From Sphingomonas hankookensis (GTDB taxonomy: Bacteria; Pseudomonadota; Alphaproteobacteria; Sphingomonadales; Sphingomonadaceae): a stretch of DNA of 64,000 nt. The notes beneath the pieces are model-generated. The model saw only the letters and a program-made list of their open reading frames with translations. It had not been told where the DNA came from and ran no database searches. The DNA is taken from contig NZ_LQQO01000005.1 of the NCBI RefSeq assembly GCF_001619955.1, positions 124,001 to 188,000 on the forward strand. The letters are read 5' to 3'. Positions 8,044-63,019 of this stretch are shown here, one piece after another (position 1 is the first letter of the stretch; every line of letters starts with the position of its first letter). Both the position numbers and the translations under genes were made by a program.

Positions 8044-8610
8044 ATGTACCATCCCGATCGCCTCCGCCATCCCGATGGCTGCCCCGCGCTGGTGCTCAAC
8101 GCGGACTATACGCCGTTGAGCTATTATCCGCTCAGCGTGTGGCCGTGGCAGACGGCGGTAAAGGCCGTATTCCTCGACCGGGTCGATATCGTCGCCGAAT
8201 ATGACCGCGAAGTGTGCAGCCCGACCGCACGGATCAAGCTGCCCTCGGTCATCGCGCTCAAGCAATATGTGCGGCCGTCGGAATTCCCGGCCTTCACCCG
8301 CTTCAACCTGTTCCTGCGCGACCGGTTCAGCTGCCAATATTGCGGCGCGACCCACGACCTGACCTTCGATCACGTCGTACCCCGCGCGCAAGGCGGGCGG
8401 ACGACCTGGGAAAATGTCGCCACCGCCTGCGCGCCGTGCAACCTGCGCAAGGGCGGCCGGACGCCCAAACAGGCGGCGATGCCGCTCCATGTCCAGCCGA
8501 TCCGCCCGACCAGCTGGCAGCTGCAGGAACAGGGCCGCCGCTTCCCGCCCAACCATCTGCACGAAACCTGGCACGACTGGCTCTACTGGGACGTCGAGCT
8601 GGAGGCGTGA
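8044..8610 (+). CDS. HNH endonuclease
   Basis: A 188-residue HNH-family nuclease. The zinc-finger/HNH unit is in the second half: CQYCG, then LTFDHVVPRAQGG (first HNH His with the Asp), then ENVATACAPCNLRKGGRTP (Asn and two Cys). The N-terminal half carries LVLNADYTPLSYYPLS, typical of the chromosomal alphaproteobacterial HNH proteins of unknown role, which are not part of restriction systems. The start at 8044 follows GAGGGGG at good spacing; the earlier in-frame start lies in the gluQ 5' region. Its stop overlaps the next gene (GTGA). Confidence 0.88.
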   Translation: MYHPDRLRHPDGCPALVLNADYTPLSYYPLSVWPWQTAVKAVFLDRVDIVAEYDREVCSPTARIKLPSVIALKQYVRPSEFPAFTRFNLFLRDRFSCQYCGATHDLTFDHVVPRAQGGRTTWENVATACAPCNLRKGGRTPKQAAMPLHVQPIRPTSWQLQEQGRRFPPNHLHETWHDWLYWDVELEA

Positions 8611-11879: not shown

Positions 11880-12164
11880 CGTCATTCCCGCGAAGGCGGG
11901 AATCCAGAGACGCAACGTCGGCGCGTCCATCCCGAACGCCAGCGCCAATAGCCTCCCGCCTCCGCGGGAGTGACGATGGCGGGAAGCACCGCCCCCCTCC
12001 CCGTCACCCCGGGCTCGACCCGGGGTCCCGCTTCTTCCGCGACCGCCGAACCTGAAGCTCGACGTTCCCACCGACCGTACCCCCGCGCAGGCGGGGGTCC
12101 AGAGCCAGCCAGACCGAAGCGATGCGCATGTCACCCTGGATCCCCGCCTGCGCGGGGATGTGGC
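11880..12164. repeat. 285-bp mosaic repeat, copy 1
   Basis: First of two tandem copies of a composite of several palindromic modules: CATTCCCGCGAAGGCGGGAAT, CCTCCCGCCTCCGCGGGAG, CACCCCGGGCTCGACCCGGGG, and the pair CCCCCGCGCAGGCGGGGG/ATCCCCGCCTGCGCGGGGAT. Copy 2 follows at 12183. Together they fill most of the 688-base gap between the PBP gene and ltaE; I see no gene or RNA in that gap. Confidence 0.85.
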
Positions 12165-12182
12165 GCTTCATAGCGTCCCTAT

Positions 12183-12464
12183 CGTCATTCCCGCGCAGGC
12201 GGGAATCCATAGACGCAACGCCGGCGCGTCCATCCCGAACGCCAGCGCCAATAGCCTCCCGCCTCCGCGGGAGTGACGATGGCGGGAAAGCACCCCCCCC
12301 CCCGCCACCCCGGGCTCGACCCGGGGTCCCGCTTCTTCCGCGACCGTCGAACCGGAAGCTCGACGTCTCACCGACCGCACCCCCGCGCAGGCGGGGGGCC
12401 AGCGCCAGCCAGACCGAAGCGTTGCGCATGTCACCCTGGATCCCCGCCTGCGCGGGGATGTGGC
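12183..12464. repeat. 285-bp mosaic repeat, copy 2
   Basis: Second copy of the unit at 11880-12164, in the same order and orientation with scattered substitutions and short indels. The open frames through both copies encode low-complexity peptides (such as SFPRRRES) typical of translated repeats and are not genes. One of these frames is continuous with ltaE but is not part of it. Confidence 0.85.
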
Positions 12465-15219: not shown

Positions 15220-15302
15220 CGTACCCCCGCAGGCGGGGGTCCAGGATTACGATCGAAACGGCGTCCTGCCTGGCTCTGGACCCCCGCCTGCGCGGGGGTA
15301 CG
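15220..15302. repeat. palindromic repeat pair (CCCCCGC-GGCGGGGG type)
   Basis: Two facing palindromes, GTACCCCCGCAGGCGGGGGTCCA and CCCCCGCCTGCGCGGGGGTACG, about 40 bases apart. The left unit lacks two bases of the usual CCCCCGCGCAGG core. It lies between two minus-strand genes (the M28 peptidase end and the SDR start). Confidence 0.8.
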
Positions 15303-49965: not shown

Positions 49966-50050
49966 GTCACCCCGGGCTTGACCCGGGGTCCCGCTTCTTT
50001 TTCTCCCGTCACGGCAAGAAAGCGGGACCCCGGGTCAAGCCCGGGGTGAC
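49966..50050. repeat. near-perfect 34-bp inverted repeat (CCCCGGGCTTGACCCGGGG type)
   Basis: The arm 49966-49999 and the arm ending 50050 are reverse complements except for one extra T, giving a long hairpin with a loop of about 17 bases. Each arm itself contains the CCCCGGG-TTGA-CCCGGGG palindrome plus CCCGCTTCTT. It is a pair of the 9037-type unit in inverted orientation. Confidence 0.85.
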
Positions 50051-50633: not shown

Positions 50634-51686
50634 TTATCGCACCGAAAAGGCGAAGCGCATGACGCTTTCGTAGCGCTGACCGGGGTCCAGCCGGGCAGAC
50701 GGAAAGTCGCTGCGGTTGGGCGTATCGGGCCACGCCTGCGGTTCGAGGCAGACGGCATCGCCCTGCCGATACAGCCGCCCGCCCTTGCCGGCCTGCGCCC
50801 CGTTCAGGAAATTGCCGGCGTAAAGTTGTAGGCCGGGCGCGGTCACTGCCACGTCCATCACCCGCCCGGAGGTGGGATCGGCCAGCACCGCCGCCGGACG
50901 CAGCACGCCCACTTTCCCCCGCACGATGAAGTTATGGTCATAGCCGCGCCCGATCGCGATCTGTTCGTCGCGGCCGTCCCGCACCCGATCGCCAATGACG
51001 TGGGGCGAGCGGAAGTCGAACGGCGTGCCCGCCACCGCCCGCCGCTCGCCGGTAGGGATCGAGGTCGCGTCGACCGGCAGGAACTGAACCGCCTCAATGG
51101 TCAGCAGGTGGCGCATCGCCTCCCCCTGCCCGCCCAGATCGAAAAAGGCGTGGTTGGTGAGATTGACTACCGTGGGTGCGTCGGTCGTCGCGGCATAGGC
51201 GATGGTCAGCGCCTCAGGTGTCAGCGTGTAGGTTGCGCTGGCGTGGAGCGTACCGGGATAGCCGGCGTCGCCGTCCGGGCTGGTCAGCGTCAGGCGGACC
51301 CATGCTGCGCCATCGTCCTGCCCGACCTCGGCCACGTCCCATAATCGCTGGTCGAAGCCGTCCGATCCGCCGTGCAGGTGGTTCGGCGTGTTGTTGGTTT
51401 CGAGTGTGTAGGTCCGCCCGTCGAGGCTGAAGCGCCCGTGCGCGATGCGGTTGGCATAGCGGCCGACCGTCACTCCGAACCACGATGGACGGTCGCGATA
51501 GGATTGGACGTCGTCGAAGCCGAGGACGATGTCGGCTACCGTGCCGTCGCGGTCGGGGACGCACAGCGACTGGAGCGTGGCGCCCAGCGGCAGAATGCGC
51601 GCGGAGAGGGTGGCGGCGGTCAATTCGATCGCTTCGGCCGGTTGGCCGTCGAGGGTGCCGAAGGCGATCCGTTGTGCGCTCGTCAT
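50634..51686 (-). CDS. galM: aldose 1-epimerase (galactose mutarotase)
   Basis: A 350-residue beta-sandwich mutarotase. Conserved parts are VGRYANRIAHGRF, NNTPNHLHGG (catalytic His), NLTNHAFFDLGG (His), YDHNF and the C-terminal CLEPQAWPDTPN (Glu). It interconverts alpha and beta aldoses such as galactose, glucose and xylose. No signal peptide is apparent, so it is cytoplasmic. ATG 51686 has GGAGAA at good spacing. It lies behind the GH35-GH31 pair on the same strand, separated by a palindromic repeat, and may be co-transcribed to handle released sugars. Confidence 0.92.
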   Translation of the reverse strand: MTSAQRIAFGTLDGQPAEAIELTAATLSARILPLGATLQSLCVPDRDGTVADIVLGFDDVQSYRDRPSWFGVTVGRYANRIAHGRFSLDGRTYTLETNNTPNHLHGGSDGFDQRLWDVAEVGQDDGAAWVRLTLTSPDGDAGYPGTLHASATYTLTPEALTIAYAATTDAPTVVNLTNHAFFDLGGQGEAMRHLLTIEAVQFLPVDATSIPTGERRAVAGTPFDFRSPHVIGDRVRDGRDEQIAIGRGYDHNFIVRGKVGVLRPAAVLADPTSGRVMDVAVTAPGLQLYAGNFLNGAQAGKGGRLYRQGDAVCLEPQAWPDTPNRSDFPSARLDPGQRYESVMRFAFSVR

Positions 51687-51713
51687 GTAATTTCTCCGCC
51701 GTTTCGCCGCTAC

Positions 51714-51800
51714 CGTACCCCCGCGCAGGCGGGGGTCCAGAGCCAAGCCAACCAGGCTGTCCGCGTGGAACCCTGGATCCCCGCCTGCGCGGGGATACCG
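51714..51800. repeat. palindromic repeat pair (CCCCCGCGCAGGCGGGGG type)
   Basis: CGTACCCCCGCGCAGGCGGGGGTCC faces GGATCCCCGCCTGCGCGGGGATACC. It lies between GH31 and galM on the same strand and could reduce read-through into galM. Confidence 0.82.
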
Positions 51801-51805
51801 TCGCG

Positions 51806-54658
51806 TTACTTGAGAGGCATGCGCACTGCCCGCCCGTCATAGACGAACGCCGTCGCCTTGTTGTCGGCAAAGTCCGGCGCGACCGCCTTGCCCGGCGTGT
51901 GGAACCGCACCGACATCGCGCGCTGGGCGACCATGCCGGGGAAGCTGCCCTGCCGCGCGCCGATGGTCAGCGTCTTCGTCGCCTCGCTCCACGTCACCGG
52001 GATCTGCGCCGACTGGCCCTTGCGATAGCCTTCGCTGAGGCCATCATCCTCGAACAACGTGTAGCTGCCATCCTTGCCGGTGAAGACGTGCAGCACATAC
52101 GGCCCATCGGGCTGTTCGGCGGTCGACTGCACCTCGGCACCGGTCGGCACGATCGATCCGGCGCGGACATAGAGCGGCATGGTGGAAAGCGGCGCGGCGG
52201 CGGTGATCGTCCGTCCGCCCTTCAGATACGCGCCGGTCGAGAAATCATACCAGTCGGCCCCGGCGGGCAGGTACACCTGCCGGCTGCGCGCGCCGAACTG
52301 CGTCACCGGTGCTACCAGGAACGCCGACCCGAACATATACTGGTCGTCGATCCCCCAGGTCTTGCGATCGGCGGCGAAGTCCATCACCAGCCCGCGCATC
52401 ATCGTGCCGTCGCGGTGCCAATTCTCGGCTGCCAGCGACAGAATGTAGGGCAGCAGCCGGTAGCGCAGGCGATCATAGGTGCCCAGCGCCTGATAGAGCG
52501 CCGGATCGCTGGCGCCGAGCTCATAGATTTCGCGGAACGGCGTCTCGCCATGGCTGCGGAACAGCGGGCTGAACGCGCCGAACTGGAACCAGCGCAGGTT
52601 CAGTTCCTTCCATTCGGCCAGATGCGCCGGGTCCTTCTTGGCATAGCGATCCTCGACCGCGAAGCCGCCGATATCGTGCGTCCAGTTGGGCACGCCCGAC
52701 ATCGACAGGTTGACGCCCGCCGAAATCTGGTCGCGCAGATCGTCCCAGCGCGACGCGACGTCGCCCGACCAGAGCGCGGCACTGGCGCGCTGGATACCGC
52801 CATAGCCCGACCGGGTCAGGATGAACGGGCGCACGTCGGGCTTCGCCTGACGCAGGCCATCCGCGACGCCCTCGGCATGAACCAAAGGATAGCTGTTGAA
52901 GAACTCCTCGGCCGGCCCCTGCGCGGTCGGACCCATCCGGTCCTTGCGTTCCTCGATCGACAGGTTCGAATGAATGTCCGGCTCGGTCGCGTCCATCCAC
53001 CATGCATCGAAGCCCTTGTCGACCAAAGCCTCCTTCATCTGCCGGAAATAGATCGCGCGCGCTTCGGGGGCATAGGGATCGTAGAAGGTGTTGAAATAAC
53101 CCTTGCCGACCCAGTCGCGTTCTTTCGCGATCAGGTTACCCTGATACAAATAGCCCTTGGCGTTCAGTTCCTGCGCGTTCTTCGTGTTCGGGTAGAATTT
53201 GGGCCACACCGAAATCATGATCCGCGCGTCCGAAGCATGGATTTCGTCGACCATCTGCTGCGGGTTGGGAAAACGTTCTCCGTCGAAGCAGTGGCAGCCC
53301 CACTGGTCCTCGGGCCAGTAGAACCAGTCCTGCACGATGTTGTCGATCGGCAGGCGGCGCTTGCGATATTCGCGCACGACGTTCAGCAGTTCGTCCTGCG
53401 TGTTGTAGCGCTGGCGGCTCTGCCAGAAGCCGTAAGCCCAGCGCGGCATCAGCGCCGCCTTGCCGGTCAGCGCGCGATAGCCGGCGATGACGCCGTCCAT
53501 GTCCTTGCCGCCGACATAATAATAATCGAGCGCATGGGCGACGTCCGACGACCACCACAGCGAATGGCGGTCGGGTGCGGGCAGCGGATCGTTCTGGAAC
53601 AGCGCGATATAGCCGGCATTCGGCTCCCACTCGATCCGGACCTCGGCCGCCTTGCCCGCGGTCATCGGCAGGTCGAAATTGTGGAACCACGGGTTCCAGT
53701 TCTGCCGCCAGCGGTTCAGCACCTCCTTGCCGTCGACGAAGACCTTCACATAGCTCGACGAATAGAGACGGAATTTCTGGACGCCGGTGACCGAAGGCAT
53801 GACGGTGCCGGTCCACACGACCTTCTGTGTCTGCACCGCATTGCCGGCGGTATTCTGTCCGGTGGTCGCGGCGACCGTCTGCGCCTTGGCCGCCGCCGGC
53901 CAGTTCGCCTGATCCTTGATGAACTGATAGTTGATCGTGGCCTCGGTCCGCGTCACCGCCAGCCGGTCGCCCAGATAATATTGCGCCTGCCAGCCGGGCT
54001 TGCCGCCCGACATGACCTTCATGCCGTCGCCGACCAGCCGATATGCCTGCGGATTGCCGAAGCGGGTGATGCCGTTATTGTCCCACAGCACGCCGTAATT
54101 CTTCGTCGACACGACGAACGGGATGCCGATGTCCATGTTATGCTGGGCGAGTTCGACGTCCTCGCCATTGTAATTCATCTGCCGGTTCTGGTGCTGGCCC
54201 AGACCGTAGAATCCTTCGTCGGTGCCGCGATTGAACTGCTGGCGGACGGCGACAAATGTTTCGCCACCGGCGGTGACCGGGGTGAACCCGGCACGTGGTG
54301 CTTCCTCCAGCGTCAGTTTGCCCGCCGCATCGCGGAAGCGCACCTGCCCATCGTCGAGGTCGATCTCGGCCGATCCGCCCGCCGCCTTCACCACTACCAG
54401 CCCACGCGTCTGGGTCACGGTGAAGTCGCCCGCCGGCTTCGCGGTCACCATCAGGCTGTCGGGCGTGTCGAGGCTGGCATCGGGCACCGCCGTCACGCGG
54501 AACCGGTCGGGACCATAGACCAGCACCCGCACCCGCTTGGCGGGGCCGGCATCGGGGGTGACGACCACCCCGCCCGGCACCTTCGCCACATCGGCGGCCA
54601 GCGCCGGGAGCGAGGCCGACAGGGCCAGCGACAACAGGGTCCAGCGAAGCGTCTTCAT
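51806..54658 (-). CDS. GH31 alpha-xylosidase with PA14 insert
   Basis: A 950-residue exported retaining glycosidase. The signal peptide is about 1-22 (ending LPALA). An N-terminal beta-sandwich is followed by a PA14-like insert near residues 270-355 (VQKFRLYSSSYVKVFVDGK), then the GH31 TIM barrel. The nucleophile is Asp556 in WWMDATEPD and the acid/base Asp633 in SGDVASRW. The PA14 insert and the domain order match the xyloglucan-specific alpha-xylosidase Xyl31A of Cellvibrio, which removes Xyl from the non-reducing end of xyloglucan oligosaccharides. ATG 54658 shares one base with the GH35 stop (TGATG). Confidence 0.9.
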   Translation of the reverse strand: MKTLRWTLLSLALSASLPALAADVAKVPGGVVVTPDAGPAKRVRVLVYGPDRFRVTAVPDASLDTPDSLMVTAKPAGDFTVTQTRGLVVVKAAGGSAEIDLDDGQVRFRDAAGKLTLEEAPRAGFTPVTAGGETFVAVRQQFNRGTDEGFYGLGQHQNRQMNYNGEDVELAQHNMDIGIPFVVSTKNYGVLWDNNGITRFGNPQAYRLVGDGMKVMSGGKPGWQAQYYLGDRLAVTRTEATINYQFIKDQANWPAAAKAQTVAATTGQNTAGNAVQTQKVVWTGTVMPSVTGVQKFRLYSSSYVKVFVDGKEVLNRWRQNWNPWFHNFDLPMTAGKAAEVRIEWEPNAGYIALFQNDPLPAPDRHSLWWSSDVAHALDYYYVGGKDMDGVIAGYRALTGKAALMPRWAYGFWQSRQRYNTQDELLNVVREYRKRRLPIDNIVQDWFYWPEDQWGCHCFDGERFPNPQQMVDEIHASDARIMISVWPKFYPNTKNAQELNAKGYLYQGNLIAKERDWVGKGYFNTFYDPYAPEARAIYFRQMKEALVDKGFDAWWMDATEPDIHSNLSIEERKDRMGPTAQGPAEEFFNSYPLVHAEGVADGLRQAKPDVRPFILTRSGYGGIQRASAALWSGDVASRWDDLRDQISAGVNLSMSGVPNWTHDIGGFAVEDRYAKKDPAHLAEWKELNLRWFQFGAFSPLFRSHGETPFREIYELGASDPALYQALGTYDRLRYRLLPYILSLAAENWHRDGTMMRGLVMDFAADRKTWGIDDQYMFGSAFLVAPVTQFGARSRQVYLPAGADWYDFSTGAYLKGGRTITAAAPLSTMPLYVRAGSIVPTGAEVQSTAEQPDGPYVLHVFTGKDGSYTLFEDDGLSEGYRKGQSAQIPVTWSEATKTLTIGARQGSFPGMVAQRAMSVRFHTPGKAVAPDFADNKATAFVYDGRAVRMPLK

Positions 54659-56292
54659 CAGCGGTACGTTCCCATGGTCACGCGCAGCAGCATCGGCTGG
54701 GCGGTGAAGTTCAATCCGTAATCGGTCTGGTCGCCGTTCATCACCCGGCGGGCGCGGAAGCTGCCGTCGTCGGCGAGCGTCCCTTCCTCGACCTTGATAA
54801 GCATGGCGGTGTCGCCCTTCGCCTTGTCCGCCACGTCGAACGACACGCGGACATCGGTGCCGGTGACGAGGAACTGGTCGGGCGCCAGTTGCAACACGGC
54901 CGCGCCGCCGACCGGTTGCGCGGCGGCGGCCGGCGGTTCGGCCTTCAGCCACGGCGAATCCATCGACCCGAACTGCCATTCGCCATATTTGGCCGATACG
55001 CTCCACCGGCCCATGACCCTGGTCTGTTCGGCATCCGGCGCGCCCTTGGCCGTTCCCCAGCCGGGATGCCGGAACGCCAGCGTCGCCCAGCCGCGCGCCA
55101 TGGGTTTCAGGAACCGGTATTTGCTGGCGAACGCCTCGATCGTCGCATCGTCCAGCGTCACCGCGCCCAGCGGATAGTTGGAATAGCCGGTCGCATCCAT
55201 GCCGAACGGCGCCCAGCCGATGCCGCCCCGCCCGATGGTCGGCCACAGGAAGCGCGCGAAGTCGGCGGCGTTGCCGGTTTCGGGCACCAGCAGCGCATTG
55301 TCGGGCCGCGCGTAGTGCTCAAGGAACTTCAGATAGTCCTTGGCACTGCGGGTATAGAGGTCGGGCGCGACCGCATCGATGCTCGGTGCCGCCGCCTTCC
55401 ACACATCGATCACCTGCCAATCGGGGCCACCGCTGGCGCCGCCCGACTTGCCCTGCGGCGCGAAGGGACCGCCGACCGCGGCGTTGACGTACATCGGCAG
55501 CGGCCACACCGCCTTCCCCGCCGCGGCGATGCGGTCGATGTAACGCGCGGTGTACCAGGCGTTAAACGCGGGTTCGGCATTGTCGCCATAGACCGCGGTC
55601 CAGCTGCCGGACTTGCCGGTCGCCTTTGCCAGTTCGGGCGGCACGTTGCCGGCGAACAGGCGGTTCGCCTCGGGCGAATAGTCGCGCGCCTGCTGGTACA
55701 CGCCGGTCTCGTTCTCCGGCTGGACCATGATGACATTATGGTCGGGGTCGTGGTCCCGCAGGTAGCGCATCAGCGCGACGAATGCCTTACGGTCCGCCTC
55801 GAACGTCGCCTGCCCATGCGGCGACAGCGCGTAATGGGTCTTGCCTTCCTTCGTCCGCATCCGCGGAAAACGGGCGTTGTTCGTCTTGACCCACGCGGGG
55901 ACATAGCCCGGCGAGGTGTTCTTCCACGTGCCGAACCATAGCAGCACCAGCTTGACGCCATGTGCACGCGCCTGCGGCAGCAGCGCGTCGAGATAGCTGA
56001 AGTCGAACCGGCCCTCGACCGGTTCGATCTGTTCCCACGCGACCGGAATCTCCAGCGTATTGGCGTGGAGCCGTTCGACCATCGGCCACACCTGCGGCAG
56101 CATGTCGGGATAGTTGCTGGAGTTGTTGGCCTGTACGCCCAGCATCAGGAACGGCTTGCCATCGACCAGCAGCGCGTGGCGGCCGTCCTTGCGGACCAAG
56201 ACCGGCGCGTCGCCCGGCTTCGCGGTGGCGACCGGCGTCGCGAGCATCGCCAGCGCCGCCCCCGCCATCGCCCAACTGCGCCACGCCGCCAT
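54658..56292 (-). CDS. GH35 beta-galactosidase (DUF5597 type)
   Basis: A 544-residue exported enzyme. The signal peptide is about 1-24 (ending ATAK). The TIM barrel carries the acid/base Glu195 in QPENETG and the nucleophile Glu338 in VPETGN. The C-terminal beta-domain (about 380-544) is of the DUF5597 type. This is the layout of xyloglucan-active Bgl35A of Cellvibrio, which removes side-chain beta-galactose. It is first in an operon with the GH31 gene (1-base overlap). Other galactosides cannot be ruled out. Confidence 0.87.
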   Translation of the reverse strand: MAAWRSWAMAGAALAMLATPVATAKPGDAPVLVRKDGRHALLVDGKPFLMLGVQANNSSNYPDMLPQVWPMVERLHANTLEIPVAWEQIEPVEGRFDFSYLDALLPQARAHGVKLVLLWFGTWKNTSPGYVPAWVKTNNARFPRMRTKEGKTHYALSPHGQATFEADRKAFVALMRYLRDHDPDHNVIMVQPENETGVYQQARDYSPEANRLFAGNVPPELAKATGKSGSWTAVYGDNAEPAFNAWYTARYIDRIAAAGKAVWPLPMYVNAAVGGPFAPQGKSGGASGGPDWQVIDVWKAAAPSIDAVAPDLYTRSAKDYLKFLEHYARPDNALLVPETGNAADFARFLWPTIGRGGIGWAPFGMDATGYSNYPLGAVTLDDATIEAFASKYRFLKPMARGWATLAFRHPGWGTAKGAPDAEQTRVMGRWSVSAKYGEWQFGSMDSPWLKAEPPAAAAQPVGGAAVLQLAPDQFLVTGTDVRVSFDVADKAKGDTAMLIKVEEGTLADDGSFRARRVMNGDQTDYGLNFTAQPMLLRVTMGTYR

Positions 56293-56465
56293 ACCGCCCT
56301 CTCCCGCTGGTCCCGTCGCCGTTTCGAGGATCGGTCGACCCGATATCCGACAGCGTTGTCACGTCTCTTTACCCACGATATCTATGTCATACAATTGGTT
56401 CTTAGCACTATCATGCGTGGCGACCGCGGACCGGAACGACCGGCCGCCATTCGGGAGGGATGTCC
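56293..56465. promoter_or_regulatory. divergent promoter region of the hydrolase island, with TGTCATACAA site
   Basis: A 173-base gap between the divergent GH35 and GH29 starts. It is richer in A and T at 56365-56412. The decamer TGTCATACAA (56385-56394), followed by TTGG, resembles GntR/FadR-type operators (TTGTATGACA on the other strand), placing it where both directions could be controlled. No regulator gene lies nearby. Confidence 0.4.
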
Positions 56466-58064
56466 ATGGAACGACGCCAATTCCTGCGCGGCACCGCCGC
56501 CCTTGCCGCCGCCGGGCCGGTCGCGGCACGGGCTGCGCCGCTGGCACCCAACTGGTCGTCGCTCGCCGATGGCTATGCGGTGCCCGACTGGTTCCGCGAT
56601 GCGAAGTTCGGCATCTGGGCGCATTGGGGGCCGCAATGCGTGCCCGAGGCCGGCGACTGGTATGCGCGGCAGATGTACGAACAGGGGCGTGGGCCGTACG
56701 ACCTGCATGTCCAGCGCTATGGCCATCCCGCCGATACCGGCTTCATGGACATTATCGGCAGGTGGCGTGCCGAGCGTTGGGACCCGGCGGCGCTGGTCAA
56801 ACGCTACAAGGCGGCGGGGGCGAAATATTTCGTCGGCATGGCAGTCCACCACGACAATTTCGACCTGTTCGACAGCCCGCATGCGTGGAACAGCACCCGC
56901 GTCGGCCCGAAGCGCGACATCATCGCCGGCTGGCGCGACGCGGCGCGGGCGGAAGGGCTGCGCTTCGGGGTGAGCAACCATGCGAGCCATGCGTGGCACT
57001 GGTATCAGGTCGCGTATAATTACGATCCCGAAGGGCCGCGTGCCGGGCAGCGTTATGACGCCGCGCGGCTGACCAAGGCGGACGGTGCCGGCAAATGGTG
57101 GGACGGGCTGGACCCGCAGGAGCTGTACACCGGCGAAACGCTGGCCGCGCCCGACGGCTTTACCACCAGGGCGCAGATGGACGCATGGGCCGGCGCGACC
57201 AGCGGGCGGTGGATGGAATTCGCACCCGCCGCCAATCCACGCTTCGTTGCCAACTGGCTGGCGCGGCAGAAGGCGCTGGTCGAGCGCTACGACCCCGATC
57301 TCGTCTATTTCGACGATTTCGGGGTGCCGTTCGGCCCGGTCGGGTTGGAGGCGATCGCCCATTTCTACAACCACGCCGCCAAGCGGTCCGGGCGTGCCGA
57401 CGTGGTGCTCACCGCCAAGCAACTGACCGCGTTCCAGCGCCAGGCACTGGTCGAGGATATCGAGCGCGGCTTTTCCGACCGGTTGCGCGCAGAGCCGTGG
57501 CAGACCTGCACCTGCATCGGCGAATGGCATTACAACCGCCGCCGCTTCGACGAGAAATCCTATGTGCCCGCGCGGGCGGTGCTGCAGCGGCTGGCCGATA
57601 TCGTGTCGAAGAACGGCAATCTGCTGCTGTCGGTGCCGGTACGCGGCGACGGATCGATCGATAGCGAAGAGGAGCGCATCGTCGACCAGATCGGCGCTTG
57701 GCTGCGCGTCAACGGGTCGGCGATCTATGGCACGCGGCCGTGGCGGACGTTCGGCCAGGGGCCGACCGACCTGGCCGGCGGGATGTTCAACGAAGGGCAG
57801 GTCGACAAGCTGGGCGCGCGCGACGTGCGGTTTACAGCGGGCGGCGGCGGGCTGAACGCGATCTTTCTGGGCTGGCCGGAGGGGCCGGCGACGATCGCGG
57901 CGCTGGGCACGCGCGCGGCGGGGCGGATCGAGCGGGCGACGTTGCTCGGCGGGGGGAGCGTGACGATGCAGCGGACGGTTGAGGGGCTGACGCTGACCCT
58001 GCCACCGGCACCGGCGGGCGCGATGCTGCCGGTGGTGCGGCTGGAGGGGGCGGGGTTGGTGTAG
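56466..58064 (+). CDS. GH29 alpha-L-fucosidase
   Basis: A 532-residue exported retaining fucosidase. The Tat-type signal ERRQFLRG begins the protein, so it is folded before export. The barrel has KFGIWAHWGPQCVPE, the conserved AVHHDNFDLFDS segment, and LVYFDDFGVPFG with Asp283 as the likely nucleophile. A C-terminal beta-domain (about 400-532) follows. ATG 56466 has GGGAGGG six bases upstream. It is divergent from the GH35-GH31 pair. Terminal alpha-1,2-fucose on xyloglucan side chains is the likely substrate, which is inference from the neighbours. Confidence 0.9.
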   Translation: MERRQFLRGTAALAAAGPVAARAAPLAPNWSSLADGYAVPDWFRDAKFGIWAHWGPQCVPEAGDWYARQMYEQGRGPYDLHVQRYGHPADTGFMDIIGRWRAERWDPAALVKRYKAAGAKYFVGMAVHHDNFDLFDSPHAWNSTRVGPKRDIIAGWRDAARAEGLRFGVSNHASHAWHWYQVAYNYDPEGPRAGQRYDAARLTKADGAGKWWDGLDPQELYTGETLAAPDGFTTRAQMDAWAGATSGRWMEFAPAANPRFVANWLARQKALVERYDPDLVYFDDFGVPFGPVGLEAIAHFYNHAAKRSGRADVVLTAKQLTAFQRQALVEDIERGFSDRLRAEPWQTCTCIGEWHYNRRRFDEKSYVPARAVLQRLADIVSKNGNLLLSVPVRGDGSIDSEEERIVDQIGAWLRVNGSAIYGTRPWRTFGQGPTDLAGGMFNEGQVDKLGARDVRFTAGGGGLNAIFLGWPEGPATIAALGTRAAGRIERATLLGGGSVTMQRTVEGLTLTLPPAPAGAMLPVVRLEGAGLV

Positions 58065-58090
58065 CGCCGCCCCTGCCTGCTCACCACAAA

Positions 58091-58173
58091 CGTCATCCCA
58101 GCGCAGGCTGGGATCTCCCGGTAACGAAGCGCGCACCTCGCCGCAGGAGACCCCAGCCTGCGCTGGGGTGACG
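58091..58173. repeat. intergenic palindromic repeat pair (CCCAGCGCAGGCTGGG type)
   Basis: Same family as 375-459. It lies behind the fucosidase gene and before the convergent GDH gene, where it could end both transcripts. Confidence 0.82.
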
Positions 58174-58198
58174 TAGGGGCTTTGCCTGCCGCCCAATC

Positions 58199-58284
58199 CG
58201 TACCCCCGCGCAGGCGGGGGTCCAGGGCGCCAATGGCCGACGTCAGCGACACTCACCCTGGGTCCCCGCCTGCGCGGGGATACG
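58199..58284. repeat. palindromic repeat pair (CCCCCGCGCAGGCGGGGG type)
   Basis: CGTACCCCCGCGCAGGCGGGGGTCC faces GGTCCCCGCCTGCGCGGGGATACG. It is a close relative of the one at 51714-51800, and follows the previous element after 25 bases. Confidence 0.82.
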
Positions 58285-58303: not shown

Positions 58304-61300
58304 CTACCGCGCCAGCAACACCCGCGCCTGTCCCGCGATCTGTGCGAGCATCGCCGCACCTGCCACCGGGGCCTGCCGCGCACGATGCACCAGTGCCGCG
58401 AATTGCGCGACGCGGTCGCGATTGGCCTCGAGCCACTTCTCGACCGCCGCCTGCGGGTCCTTGCCGGCATTGCGATTGAGGAAGTCGAAGCGCAGCTGCT
58501 GGAAATCGCGCGCCAGGCCGGCGATCAGCAGCCGCTCCCACGGGTCACCGGTCTGGATACGTGCCGCCACCGCCTGAGCCCAGTCCAGCCCCAGCGCGAA
58601 GCCGAGATGGGTGAAGGCCAGCGTCAGCCGCGTCTCGTCCAGCTTCAACCGGCGGCCGAGATCGGCAAGGCCGACCGCCCCGTCCAGTTCGAACAGCCGC
58701 ACGACCTGTCCGGCCAGTTCCTGCGGCGCGCCGGCATCCTGCAACACGCCGGCGATCCGGTCGCGCTGTTGTGCCGCCTCGGCGCGGAGCAGCGAGCTGG
58801 TCTGTCCGGCAAGGCTCGCCACGCCCTTTTGCAGGTGCGCGACGGCATGGGCCGGGGTGGTGCCCGCCGGGAAGGCGCGCAGCAGGTCGGCGATCTGCGA
58901 ACGCACGCCGACCGCCACCTCGTCGAGCAGCGCGATGCGCGCCCGCTCCGAAATATCGGCACCCTCGATCCGGTCGTAGAGCGCGTCGATGTCGAACAGT
59001 CGTTCGGCGGCGACGAACATCGCCGCGATATCGGCCAGCGCCTCGCCCTCTTCCTCCGCCAGTTCGAAGACGTGCAGCACACCCAGCCGGTTGACGATGC
59101 GGTTGGCGAGCTTGGTCGCGACGATTTCCCCGCGCAGACGGTGGTCGAGGATCGCCTGTTTGTGGGTTTCCTGCATTTCCTTCGGGAAGGCGGCGAGCAG
59201 ATCGCCTGCCATATCCGGATCGGTCGCTAGGGGAGCGTGCTCGATCGCCTCCTGCAGGGCCAGCTTCACGCTGGCGAGCAGTACCGCCAGTTCGGGGCGG
59301 GTGAGGCCCCGCCCGTCCTGCGCACGGCGGACATAATCGTCGTTGGCGCTCAGGCCCTCGACCACGCGGTCGAGCTTGCCGGCGGCCTCCAGCATCTCGA
59401 TCACGCGGACATAGCTCGGGACCGCGACGGGGCCGTCATTCTCCATGACCGACAGCGCCAGCGTCTGGAGCCGGTTGTCCTCCAGCACCAGATGCGCGAC
59501 GTCATCGGTCATCCGCGCCAGCAGCGCGTTGCGATCGTCCTGCGCAAGGCGCCCTTCGATCACTTCGCGGTTCAGCGCGATCTTGATGTTCACCTCGTTG
59601 TCCGAACAATCGACGCCGGCCGAATTGTCGATGAAGTCGGTGTTGATCCGCCCGCCATGGGCGCTGAACGCGATGCGCGCGGCCTGGGTGACGCCCAGGT
59701 TCGCGCCCTCGCCGATTGCCTTGGCGCGCAGCGTCTGGGCATCGACGCGGATACGGTCGTTGGCCGGATCGCCGACGTCGAGATGGCTCTCGCTGCGGTC
59801 CTTCACATAGGTGCCGATGCCGCCGAACCAGATCAGGTCGACGGGCGCGCGCAGGATCGCGGAAATGAGCGCGGTCGGCTCCATTTCGCGCTCAGCGACG
59901 CCGAGCATCGCGCGGACCGCATCGCTCAGCGGGATCGTCTTGGCGGTACGCGGGAATACGCCGCCGCCCTCCGAAATCAGCGTCGGGTCGTAATCGGCCC
60001 AGCTGGAGCGCGGCAGCTGGAACAGCCGGTCGCGCTCGGTCCAGCTCGCCGCCGCGTCGGGCGCGGGGTCGAGGAAGATGTGGCGATGGTCGAACGCCGC
60101 CTTCAGCCGGATCGCCTTCGACAGCAGCATGCCGTTGCCGAACACGTCGCCCGACATGTCGCCGCACCCGATCACGTCGATCGGCTGCGTCTGCACGTCG
60201 ACGCCCAGTTCGAGGAAGTGGCGCTGCACCGAAATCCACGCGCCCTTGGCGGTGATGCCCATCGCCTTGTGGTCGTACCCGACGCTGCCACCGCTTGCGA
60301 ACGCATCGCCCAGCCAGAACTTCCGCTCCAGCGCGAGGGCATTGGCGACGTCGCTGAACGTCGCGGTTCCCTTGTCGGCGGCGACCACGAAATAGGGGTC
60401 TTCGCCGTCATGGATGACGACGCTATCGGGATGGACGACCTTGCCCTCGACGATATTGTCGGTGATCGACAGCAGCGACCGGATGAAGATGCGGTAGCTC
60501 TCCGTCCCTTCCGCGATCCACGCATCGCGGTTCGACGGCGCGGGCAGCTGCTTGGGGTAGAAGCCGCCCTTGGCCCCGGTCGGCACGATCACCGCATTCT
60601 TGACGCGCTGCGCCTTCATCAGCCCCAGGATTTCGGTGCGGAAATCGTCGCGCCGGTCCGACCAGCGCAGGCCGCCGCGCGCCACCGGACCGGCGCGCAG
60701 ATGGATGCCCTCGACCCGAGGCGAATAGACGAACACCTCGCGCCACGGCAGCGGCTTGGGCAGATTCGGCACCTTCGCGCTGTCCAGCTTGAACACCAGC
60801 GCCTCGTTGGCGGCGGGCGCAAAGGCGTTGGTGCGCAGCGTCGCGGCGACGACCCCGCGATAGCTGCGCAGGATGCGGTCGTCGTCGATCGCCGAGACCG
60901 CGTCCAGCCCCGCCTCGATCGCGGTATCGGCAGCGGTCACGCCCGCCTCGCGGTCGCTGCGCGACGGGTCGTGCGCGGCATTGAACCGTTCGATCAGCGC
61001 GGTGGCGACACCCGGCGCCCGGCGCAGCGCGTCGACCACGGTGGCAAGGCTGTAGCTGACCCCGGTCTGGCGCAGATAGCGGAACCAGGCGCGCAGCAGG
61101 ACGACGGCGGCCGGCGCGATTCCTGCCTCGACCGTCAGCCGGTTGAACGCGTCGTTTTCGGCACGGTTTTCCAGCACCGCCTCGATCGCTCGCTCGACCA
61201 CCGCCACGTCGAATTTCGGCGCGGCGCCCGACGCCACCTCGACCTCGAAGTCATGGATGAAGCTCTTCTCCTCATCCTCCAGCCGGGTCGGCAATTCCTC

Positions 61301-62917
61301 GATCACGCGGAAGCCAAAATTTTCGAACACCGGCACCGCATCCGACAACGGCAGCGCGCCGCCGCGGCGATACACCTTGATCCGCATCCGCTCGCCCGGC
61401 GCCGACAGGATGCGAACCGAGCGCGACGTGGCGTCGGTCAGCGCCGCGACGCGCACGATATCGCGGGCCGCTTCGTCGGGCAGGTTCGAATTGCGATAAT
61501 TGGCCGGAAAGGCATTGGCGAAGCGCAGCGCCATCCGGGTCGCTCCTTCGGGCACCATTTCGCTCAGCGCCCCCTCGACCGCCGGGCGCCAGCCGCGTAC
61601 CATGCGTTCGATCCGCCGGTCGAGATCGGCGGTATCGGGCATCCGCCCGTCCTGCCTGAGGTCGAGGACGTAGCGGATCAGCGCCGCCTCGCCATCCTCC
61701 ATCGCGATCGACCAGTTGAGGATCGACGCGTTCGCCGCCTGCGCCAGCATGTCGCCGATCGACAGGCGACGCTGTGTCGTCACGTCGTCGCGACCCAGCC
61801 AGACAAAGGCGAACAGATGCCGCCCCAGCGCCGACTTGATCAGCACCAGCCGCGAACGCGGACGATCCGCAACCGACATGGCGGTCAGCGCCAGCTGTTC
61901 GAGCGATTCGGGATTGAACGCGGTGGTCAGGTCGTGGGGCAGCGTCGAAATGGCGTGGTTCAGCGCCTTGCCGGCATGGCCCGACGGGTCGAAGCCGAAC
62001 TTGGCCCGCAGCTCGGCCAGATTACGGCGCAGCACCGGCACCTCGGCGGGATCGGCCTGCAACGCGGCGCTGGTCCACAGCCCCCCATGGATCGACACGC
62101 CGGTCACCTGGTCGCCCTCGCGGATCGGCACCAGCACGAGGTCGATCGGCGCGCGGCGATGGACGGTCGAGATGCAGTTGGACTTCAGCAGCAGCGGCTG
62201 GACATTGCCGGCATCGAACCATTCGATCGCGCGCTGACGCGACGCATCGGCGAGCAGCGGCACCTCCAGCCGGGCACGCGACAGGCCCAGCCGGTCGCTC
62301 ACCACCCCGTCGCGCGACCAGCGTTCATGCGCCAGCTGCGTCAGGTTGCCCGCGACGAACCAGCCCAGCAGCGCGGCATCCTCGGCAGTATCGGCATTCG
62401 CGGTCAGCCGCGCGGCATCGGCCTGCATCGCCGCCTGCATCGCGCGCCAATCGGCCACGGCGGCGCGGACATGCTCCAGATTGCGCTCGATCTCGGCGAC
62501 CAGCGCGTGCCGGACGCGCGCCTCGGCCCGTTCCATCTCGATATAGATCATCGATTCGCGGCGACCTTCGCCGTCCAGACCGGTCAGCGTACCCGCCGCG
62601 TCGCGGGTGACGGCGATCACCGGATGCAGGATGCGGTCGATCGCGATGTCGTGGGCGACGATCGTGCTGGCGATCGAATCGACCAGGAACGGCATGTCGT
62701 CGTTGATGACCGCAAGGCGCATCCGCCGCGCCTCGCCCCGGGTCAGCGTTTCCAGCGCGACGCTGACCGTGCCGGGCGAACGGTGGGCGGCGGTCGCCGC
62801 CACGAACTGCGCCGCGTCGGCACGGGCCGCGGCGTCCAGACCTTCGATTTCACCGGGAAGGGCGCTGTCGACCAGCAGCGTTTCCAGGGGGCGGGCGAGC
62901 TTGCTTTGCGGTGTCAT
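58304..62917 (-). CDS. large NAD-specific glutamate dehydrogenase
   Basis: A 1537-residue cytoplasmic enzyme of the Bac_GDH (GDH2) family that oxidises glutamate to 2-oxoglutarate with NAD. An N-terminal regulatory part (about 1-640, ACT-like pieces such as LVDSIASTIVAHDI) is followed by the catalytic core with VARGGLRWSDRRDDFRTEI and VIVPTGAKGGFYPKQLP (substrate lysines), GGSVGYDHKAMGITAKGAW, CGDMSGDVFGNGML, and a long helical C-terminal region. Length is usual for the 170-180 kDa class. ATG 62917 begins the recognisable N-terminus; a TTG upstream is possible. Its role is amino-acid catabolism. Confidence 0.94.
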   Translation of the reverse strand: MTPQSKLARPLETLLVDSALPGEIEGLDAAARADAAQFVAATAAHRSPGTVSVALETLTRGEARRMRLAVINDDMPFLVDSIASTIVAHDIAIDRILHPVIAVTRDAAGTLTGLDGEGRRESMIYIEMERAEARVRHALVAEIERNLEHVRAAVADWRAMQAAMQADAARLTANADTAEDAALLGWFVAGNLTQLAHERWSRDGVVSDRLGLSRARLEVPLLADASRQRAIEWFDAGNVQPLLLKSNCISTVHRRAPIDLVLVPIREGDQVTGVSIHGGLWTSAALQADPAEVPVLRRNLAELRAKFGFDPSGHAGKALNHAISTLPHDLTTAFNPESLEQLALTAMSVADRPRSRLVLIKSALGRHLFAFVWLGRDDVTTQRRLSIGDMLAQAANASILNWSIAMEDGEAALIRYVLDLRQDGRMPDTADLDRRIERMVRGWRPAVEGALSEMVPEGATRMALRFANAFPANYRNSNLPDEAARDIVRVAALTDATSRSVRILSAPGERMRIKVYRRGGALPLSDAVPVFENFGFRVIEELPTRLEDEEKSFIHDFEVEVASGAAPKFDVAVVERAIEAVLENRAENDAFNRLTVEAGIAPAAVVLLRAWFRYLRQTGVSYSLATVVDALRRAPGVATALIERFNAAHDPSRSDREAGVTAADTAIEAGLDAVSAIDDDRILRSYRGVVAATLRTNAFAPAANEALVFKLDSAKVPNLPKPLPWREVFVYSPRVEGIHLRAGPVARGGLRWSDRRDDFRTEILGLMKAQRVKNAVIVPTGAKGGFYPKQLPAPSNRDAWIAEGTESYRIFIRSLLSITDNIVEGKVVHPDSVVIHDGEDPYFVVAADKGTATFSDVANALALERKFWLGDAFASGGSVGYDHKAMGITAKGAWISVQRHFLELGVDVQTQPIDVIGCGDMSGDVFGNGMLLSKAIRLKAAFDHRHIFLDPAPDAAASWTERDRLFQLPRSSWADYDPTLISEGGGVFPRTAKTIPLSDAVRAMLGVAEREMEPTALISAILRAPVDLIWFGGIGTYVKDRSESHLDVGDPANDRIRVDAQTLRAKAIGEGANLGVTQAARIAFSAHGGRINTDFIDNSAGVDCSDNEVNIKIALNREVIEGRLAQDDRNALLARMTDDVAHLVLEDNRLQTLALSVMENDGPVAVPSYVRVIEMLEAAGKLDRVVEGLSANDDYVRRAQDGRGLTRPELAVLLASVKLALQEAIEHAPLATDPDMAGDLLAAFPKEMQETHKQAILDHRLRGEIVATKLANRIVNRLGVLHVFELAEEEGEALADIAAMFVAAERLFDIDALYDRIEGADISERARIALLDEVAVGVRSQIADLLRAFPAGTTPAHAVAHLQKGVASLAGQTSSLLRAEAAQQRDRIAGVLQDAGAPQELAGQVVRLFELDGAVGLADLGRRLKLDETRLTLAFTHLGFALGLDWAQAVAARIQTGDPWERLLIAGLARDFQQLRFDFLNRNAGKDPQAAVEKWLEANRDRVAQFAALVHRARQAPVAGAAMLAQIAGQARVLLAR

Positions 62918-63019
62918 GCGCGGGCTATGCGCTGCCTCGCCGACAGGCTCAACCCTTGTGGCAGTTGCGAACAAAATGTCGCAGTGCGGTAATTATATTA
63001 CGAGCATGCCCGGTCGATA
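62918..63019 (-). promoter_or_regulatory. intergenic region ahead of GDH with short inverted repeat
   Basis: The AT-rich stretch near 62985-63005 (AATTATATTACG) could hold the promoter of the GDH gene. TGCGA (62966-62970) and TCGCA (62979-62983) are inverted around eight bases and may be a binding site, but the arms are only five bases long. Confidence 0.25.

Follow-up and report, generated by a model that had tools for sequence, protein, structure and literature searches.

What would a bacterium gain from enzymes that strip the side chains from a plant polysaccharide, if the genes for capturing and cutting that polysaccharide do not lie beside them? The question is raised by a 64,000-nucleotide stretch of the Sphingomonas hankookensis genome (contig NZ_LQQO01000005.1, positions 124,001 to 188,000; hereafter the window), in which an initial annotation, made from the letters alone, had read a compact locus of four genes: a GH29 alpha-L-fucosidase, a GH35 beta-galactosidase, a GH31 alpha-xylosidase with a PA14 insert, and galM. 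All four are where that annotation had put them, and Pfam bore out their families. GH35 (54658..56292) and GH31 (51806..54658) are both on the minus strand, and the overlap by one base claimed for them is real, base 54658 serving, in a TGATG junction, both the stop codon of GH35 (TGA) and the start codon of GH31 (ATG). GH29 (56460..58064, plus strand) is divergent from the pair, and galM (50634..51686, minus strand) follows 3' of GH31. The answer that we hold to be probable is that GH29, GH35 and GH31 make up a periplasmic cassette for the side chains of fucogalactoxyloglucan, a reduced and relocated form of a fuller locus, which feeds on oligosaccharides made by others.

As we picture it, GH29 would take off the terminal L-fucose of fucogalactoxyloglucan oligosaccharides, GH35 would then cleave the exposed beta-1,2-galactose and GH31 the non-reducing-end alpha-1,6-xylose, after which the bared glucose would be trimmed by a GH3 beta-glucosidase encoded elsewhere. 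The cassette would have arisen, by reduction and relocation, from the GH29-TonB receptor-GH35-GH31 locus of related Sphingomonadales (with GH74 in some), and the cell would live on oligosaccharides from other organisms or from a non-specific glucanase, since its genome appears to hold no linked or orthologous receptor and gave no match to GH74, GH9 or GH95. The annotation had already proposed an exo-acting module that depends on oligosaccharides made elsewhere, and this is still the best reading.

The GH35-GH31 pair and known xyloglucan loci

The product of the GH31 gene, which begins with a hydrophobic leader recognized by eye, has Pfam GH31 domains and a PA14 domain at residues 255-345 (E 1.8e-7). 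Its matches in the PDB were led by 2xvg (Xyl31A; 1031 bits), 7kmp (1007 bits), which we take to be XacXyl31, and 5jou (BoGH31A; 823 bits), with the next chain at 335 bits. W328 of the PA14 domain and W524 of XacXyl31 are described, in the accessible text of the paper, as an aromatic platform (PMC8245568). Tryptophans in the QNWNPW and DWVGKGY motifs of the window's protein align with these two residues (the numbering offset is our own derivation), and both catalytic-aspartate motifs are kept in the alignment. The GH35 product, also with a hydrophobic leader as judged by eye, gave weak Pfam matches to GH42/GH35 and a match to DUF5597 (E 6.9e-29). Against 3u7v, 8fa4, 7kmn (presumably a Xanthomonas chain) and Bgl35A (4d1i) it scored 543-616 bits, and its NE and E-x-GN motifs, which we assume to be catalytic, align with those of Bgl35A. 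The first of these chains is a Caulobacter protein, according to the part of the source that was available (PMC4285296). By sequence, then, the nearest kin of both proteins are xyloglucan enzymes (Xyl31A, Bgl35A and their homologues), as the annotation had said in likening them to the Cellvibrio pair; it had named nearest matches in non-xyloglucan clades as what would overturn its reading, and these were not what was found. The prediction of xyloglucan as the substrate of the pair is well founded.

The xyloglucan utilization locus (XyGUL) of Cellvibrio japonicus has the order xyl31A-bgl35A-tbdr-afc95A, its GH31/GH35 pair is co-transcribed and 41 bases apart, and the accessible text places no endoxyloglucanase, beta-glucosidase or regulator gene beside it (PMC4285296). 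The window is alike in its tight pair of homologues, which share one base, and in these three absences. The annotation was right that neither a receptor nor an endoxyloglucanase adjoins the window's genes, but the lack of an endoxyloglucanase is no contrast with Cellvibrio; the real differences are the missing linked TonB receptor and GH29 where Cellvibrio has GH95. That GH29 takes the place of GH95 held up in so far as no GH95 was found genome-wide, but it is not peculiar to the window, as the relatives' loci described below make clear. With Xanthomonas the window shares close GH31 (7kmp) and GH35 (7kmn) homologues and the PA14 tryptophan. The Xanthomonas XyGUL holds GH74, GH31, GH35, GH95, a CE20 esterase and two TonB-dependent transporters (TBDTs), as given in the accessible text (PMC8245568); of these, GH74, GH95 and a TBDT are lacking at the window's locus, and GH74 and GH95 are unmatched in the whole genome too. 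We regard the cassette as a Cellvibrio/Xanthomonas-like set without receptor and endo-acting enzyme and with GH29 for GH95, and not as a new system. Set beside a complete xyloglucan locus it lacks the receptor and GH95, and it should work as the exo-acting part of one. A literature search that covered titles and the openings of abstracts, with most subscription papers outside its reach, returned no named Sphingomonas xyloglucan locus.

The fuller locus of relatives and the genome inventory

All locus counts refer to the best 80 of 342 places matching GH31; gene calls in these relatives' loci were heuristic, families were built by single-linkage clustering, and contig edges cut many loci short. 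GH35 was located by tblastn in 62 of the 80, and in 61 of these it precedes GH31 by no more than 200 nt. A TonB receptor of the family that we label c2 was present in 29 loci, a Trp_halogenase-like gene in 25, GH29 in 23, GH3 in 20, GH74 in 12, a GDSL gene in 10 and SASA-type esterases in 8. Thirteen of the 23 loci with GH29 also had a locus-type TonB receptor or GH74, and an L-fuconate-dehydratase homologue accompanied GH29 in five (L012, L015, L046, L064, L070), which shows GH29 to be a recurrent companion of xyloglucan-type loci in alphaproteobacteria. Eleven loci, well supported as a clade in GH31 trees, are syntenic with the window; close kin of its locus are found in Sphingomonas panni, S. 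hankookensis, S. lacusdianchii and Leaf-named strains (GH31 90-96% identical). All 11 keep the one-base TGATG junction, and none has a c2 receptor (29/69 outside the clade), GH74 (12/69 outside) or a GH5 of family c38.

The sister of this clade in the GH31 trees is L010 (support 99 in a quick tree and 89/90 in a careful one), in which the order is GH29 (divergent, as it is in the window), Trp_halogenase, TonB receptor, IclR, GH35 and GH31. L011 and L012 have the GH35-GH31 pair between an L-fuconate-dehydratase homologue and efflux genes, and on contig 2 of the window's genome IclR, dehydratase and efflux genes stand together without the pair. Strain Leaf10 has both kinds of locus: a complete one (contig 23 of its genome, G006; L169/L170) with the order GH74-GH31-GH35-TBDT-Trp_halogenase-GH29, and the cassette, without GH29, at the same site between glutamate dehydrogenase and galM as in the window (L009). 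The GH31 of its complete locus is 96% identical to that of the window, is its sister in the tree (96/94) and has the same one-base overlap, whereas the locus keeps the GH74, TBDT and Trp_halogenase that the window lacks. Because this GH31 groups with the window's while the GH35 (77% identical) and GH29 (74%) do not, the mosaic points to GH31 recombination between the two locus kinds. In the genome of L006 a TBDT, Trp_halogenase, GH29 and GH5 lie together on another contig than the GH35-GH31 pair, which we read as a half-way state of relocation. The direction that we infer from these arrangements is relocation with stepwise reduction of a fuller locus. If it is right, close Sphingomonas kin, several of them Leaf-named, would differ in whether they attack xyloglucan or finish the fragments of others, and this division of labour on a plant polymer could be tested with sibling strains (Leaf10 with its complete locus against cassette-only strains).

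The window's genome (3.81 Mb, 63 contigs, 99.9% complete) holds one GH35 and one GH31. The annotation had proposed a search of the genome for GH74, GH9, GH95, GH5_4 and a TonB receptor. No GH9 was matched genome-wide, nor GH95 (PF22124, a family matched in 1 of 14 control genomes), nor GH74 with a 12-sequence alignment that matched 7 of 17 other genomes, two of which (L060, L022) had supplied alignment rows; among nine syntenic-clade genomes tested GH74 was present in one, Leaf10, whereas Leaf32 and S. hankookensis gave no match. Some 23 segments of the window's genome match the locus-type TonB receptor, but none lies on the window's contig, and the best of them is only 36% identical to any of the relatives' locus receptors (those of L010 and L027 are 71% identical to each other). 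A linked or clearly orthologous receptor appears to be missing. GH5 had one match above the cut-off and one below (20.1 bits). The former, on contig 34, has cellulases and endoglucanases as its best PDB chains, which we take to belong to subfamily GH5_2 and not GH5_4; it was set aside as an endoxyloglucanase, as was a GH16 beside GH5 that resembles laminarinases, and both were kept only as possible non-specific cutters. There are nine GH3 matches, and a cluster for xylose includes a sugar porter and a D-xylose 1-dehydrogenase that scores above its NCBIfam cut-off. A dehydratase-like enzyme is 89% identical to the dehydratase adjoining the glycosidase pair in L012; its first PDB match is 4ip4, of the MR/MLE family (646 bits), and its second the L-fuconate dehydratase structures (557 bits).

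A promoter palindrome and the alternatives

The divergent promoter between GH29 and GH35 contains the palindrome CGACAGCGTTGTCA (56348..56361, no strand assigned), a candidate LacI-type operator that, like the relocated, reduced form of the locus, lay beyond what the annotation could see from a single window. Between the window and four relatives, GACAGCGTTGTC is an invariant core amid diverged promoter sequence; the palindrome has the form xGACAxCGxTGTCx, and its distance to the start codon is about 57 bp for GH35 and 100-111 bp for GH29 (taken to begin at 56460). An exact match to GACARCGYTGTC is present in all ten clade loci whose sequence covers the region (L003-L009, L021, L031, L041; L002, which begins inside GH35, was excluded), in none of the loci L010, L011 and L012, and elsewhere in four other loci of the 80 (L020, L053, L058, L074). 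With up to one mismatch allowed, the window holds this match and no other, where 0.13 would be expected, and because 13 of 100 shuffles also hold a match, conservation is the main evidence for it. LacI operators resemble one another as even palindromes with a central CG, as stated in the accessible text of PMC4052901, and by analogy the shape of the palindrome fits an operator of this family. A conserved CG-centred palindrome in the promoter of the cassette is a new observation.

Several results weigh against reading the genes as a scavenging xyloglucan cassette. GH31 scored under all three NCBIfam equivalog cut-offs listed for it, and GH35 below that of its NCBIfam subfamily (456 vs 500 bits). 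The genomes of the receptor-bearing loci L010 and L046 also gave no GH74 match, so that the reduced form is not alone in lacking GH74. The cellulase-like GH5 might cut xyloglucan, and an endo-enzyme could be missed, as GH12, GH44, GH45, GH26 and acetylesterases lay outside the genome-wide searches. The dehydratase scored above no NCBIfam cut-off, and its best chain, 4ip4, is not named an L-fuconate dehydratase. The enzyme activities, and with them the substrate, the order of action, the periplasmic location and the route of import, are predictions from the genes. As for GH29 (Pfam Alpha_L_fucos, E 4.5e-81; start at 56460, or at 56466 if judged by ribosome-binding-site spacing), its N-terminus resembles a twin-arginine translocation (Tat) signal (RRQFLRG; TAT_signal 20.7 bits, below the 22.7 cut-off), and one aspartate of the protein is aligned with a residue for which 7ljj has D and 7lnp has N, as expected of the catalytic one. 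Its best PDB matches are to an exo-alpha-L-galactosidase (7snk/7ljj, 272 bits), followed by 9lxl (173 bits) and 4ni3 (165 bits), the last of which is presumably Fusarium FCO1.

That ranking, together with the gain and loss of GH29 independently of GH35-GH31 within the clade (of the 10 clade loci whose sequence reaches that far, 6 lack it at the window-type position, L002 being cut off there), would suit an enzyme with exo-alpha-L-galactosidase activity, or one whose target is some other fucosylated glycan, in which case there would be no single Fuc-Gal-Xyl relay. We think this unlikely. In the accessible text of PMC11189522, BpGH29, the exo-alpha-L-galactosidase, and FgFCO1 fall in one GH29 cluster, a preference for Fuc-alpha-1,2-Gal is reported for members of it, and members of clusters 2 and 3 free fucose from xyloglucan; on these grounds L-fucose specificity is likely, and the recurrence of GH29 near GH35-GH31 in distant relatives, some of them with the L-fuconate-dehydratase homologue, argues the same way. 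The patchy presence of GH29, which in S. panni (L004) is reduced to fragments (8059-8233) upstream of GH35, where siblings have the gene, might also be taken to mean that a full xyloglucan locus is decaying and that the cassette, as what is left of it, now has little function. Such decay is very improbable: the frames are intact, the TGATG junction and the palindrome are kept, and the ratio of nonsynonymous to synonymous substitution rates (dN/dS) is 0.07-0.22 in 16 comparisons of the window with six relatives (GH29 4, GH35 6, GH31 6; GH29 is absent in two of the six), equal to that of the flanking glutamate dehydrogenase, TraB-family and mfd-like genes (0.07-0.20). The cassette is under purifying selection.

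A further alternative is that the pathway is complete and merely dispersed, a LacI-type regulator joining the cassette to a GH3 beta-glucosidase, a receptor/Trp_halogenase pair and a GH5 endoglucanase on other contigs. Recurrence of the palindrome suggests such a dispersed regulon. The scan covered about 14% of the genome. In 318,407 bases taken from the window and from other stretches of its genome there were 10 matches at up to one mismatch, against 3.9 in shuffles, and two exact ones, against 0.15, each count including the window site that defines the motif, and a 200,000-base control held none at up to one mismatch (1.8 in shuffles); the enrichment is only indicative, because the stretches were mostly chosen around glycoside-hydrolase and receptor genes and were not random. 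Of the two exact copies, the one outside the window precedes a GH3 gene by 66 bp (L153:9037; best match among relatives' loci 61%), and one-mismatch copies lie in the divergent promoter of a Trp_halogenase and a TBDT (L097:14027), 44 bp ahead of an ATG in frame with GH5 (L101:10513), upstream of a second GH3 (L158:8676) and upstream of an alpha-galactosidase (L097:5886). However, five of the ten matches are inside open reading frames (ORFs) as called; the GH5 site is read as upstream of a likelier start, the other four are probably chance, and an exact copy within the GH5 coding sequence of a relative (L171:17080) surely is. No cognate regulator was tied to the site: LacI-like genes were seen by BLAST at L152 and L155, but neither was connected with it, the gene beside the palindrome-bearing GH3 is of the ROK family, and the very likeness of LacI operators means that different regulators may read the sites (PMC4052901, accessible text). 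The candidate receptor, moreover, is at most 36% identical to those of the relatives' loci. We treat the dispersed pathway as a tentative possibility, with the balance tilted against it, and prefer the scavenging cassette. A bolder reading, which must be called doubtful, is that a polymer degrader became an oligosaccharide scavenger when its locus was broken up and lost receptor and endo-enzyme, leaving repeat-bounded exo-enzymes at a housekeeping site, a dispersed regulon (GH3, TonB receptor, GH5) rewired through the operator, and a GH31 exchanged with complete loci. If our reading of the locus is right, the palindrome also offers a way to locate scattered members of the pathway.

galM, inverted repeats and other neighbours

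The annotation had included galM in the locus, and its position 3' of GH31 on the same strand is as claimed, but it is probably not a member of the unit. The gene is a clear aldose 1-epimerase (Pfam Aldose_epim, E 4e-83), and its most likely start is the ATG at 51686, in place of the TTG at 51746. A functional role for it as the fourth gene of the unit was set aside as unproven: an inverted repeat separates it from GH31, it is present at the locus in the syntenic clade only (11/80 loci), and its synonymous divergence (dS) is higher, at 0.57-0.81 against five of six relatives and each time above the other genes compared (against S. panni it is 0.38, not the highest there). Its history differs from that of the other genes, and it is probably a mere neighbour. 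A further reason is that the best of its other matches across the genus sample reach no more than 60% identity and, in all three regions fetched (L148-L150), adjoin dehydratase genes. A point against setting galM aside is that in one of these regions (L148) the galM gene found there has a GH29 gene and a gene for an ABC transporter less than 5 kb away, which makes a looser tie between galM and fucosidase loci possible.

Between GH31 and galM lies a 98-bp inverted repeat resembling repetitive extragenic palindromic (REP) elements (51708..51805; 33-nt arms, 88% complementary), and two more lie downstream of GH29 (58090..58174 and 58199..58284; 29-nt arms, 93% and 90% complementary, respectively), none with a strand assigned. 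The core at 51720/51779 is the same as that at 58205/58264, so the cassette is flanked by same-core repeats (51708-51805 and 58199-58284), which is suggestive only, because such repeats are common in the window. REP-like repeats of several core types occur at 12082-12456, 15224-15296, 49966-50050, 51708-51805 and 58090-58284, and their cores are often paired, 55-60 bp apart, at many window sites. Beyond the repeats follows the gene for NAD-glutamate dehydrogenase (58304-62974); the other flanking genes are one of the TraB/GumN family and an ORF read by eye as mfd.

A few observations concern the relatives. L006 comes from a record titled Bacillus sp. 2B10, a name that is almost certainly mistaken: the gene order of L006 matches that of the Sphingomonas locus, and the six proteins common to both are 82-95% identical. 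In Sphingomonas sp. CFBP 13720, the source of L012, a GH74 gene on contig 3 (L104) has an in-frame TAG and is apparently a broken endoxyloglucanase. Trp_halogenase-family proteins lie near TonB receptors in the window's genome (L097:12483-14012, L098:7378-8892) as in the 25 relatives' loci counted above, 24 of which also have the c2 receptor. Ten large, unassigned proteins encoded nearby were scanned once for GH95, with no match. Finally, a protein of about 650-710 residues with a leader-like start and 91% mean column identity (L028:3833-5797, L033:3662-5791, L035:3824-5788, L036:3854-5797) adjoins GH3-GH35-GH31 in S. asaccharolytica, S. mali, S. pruni and one metagenome-assembled genome; two members scanned had no Pfam match, the 654-residue protein of S. 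mali-type loci gave a poor predicted model (pLDDT 41), and the family is possibly an undescribed enzyme.

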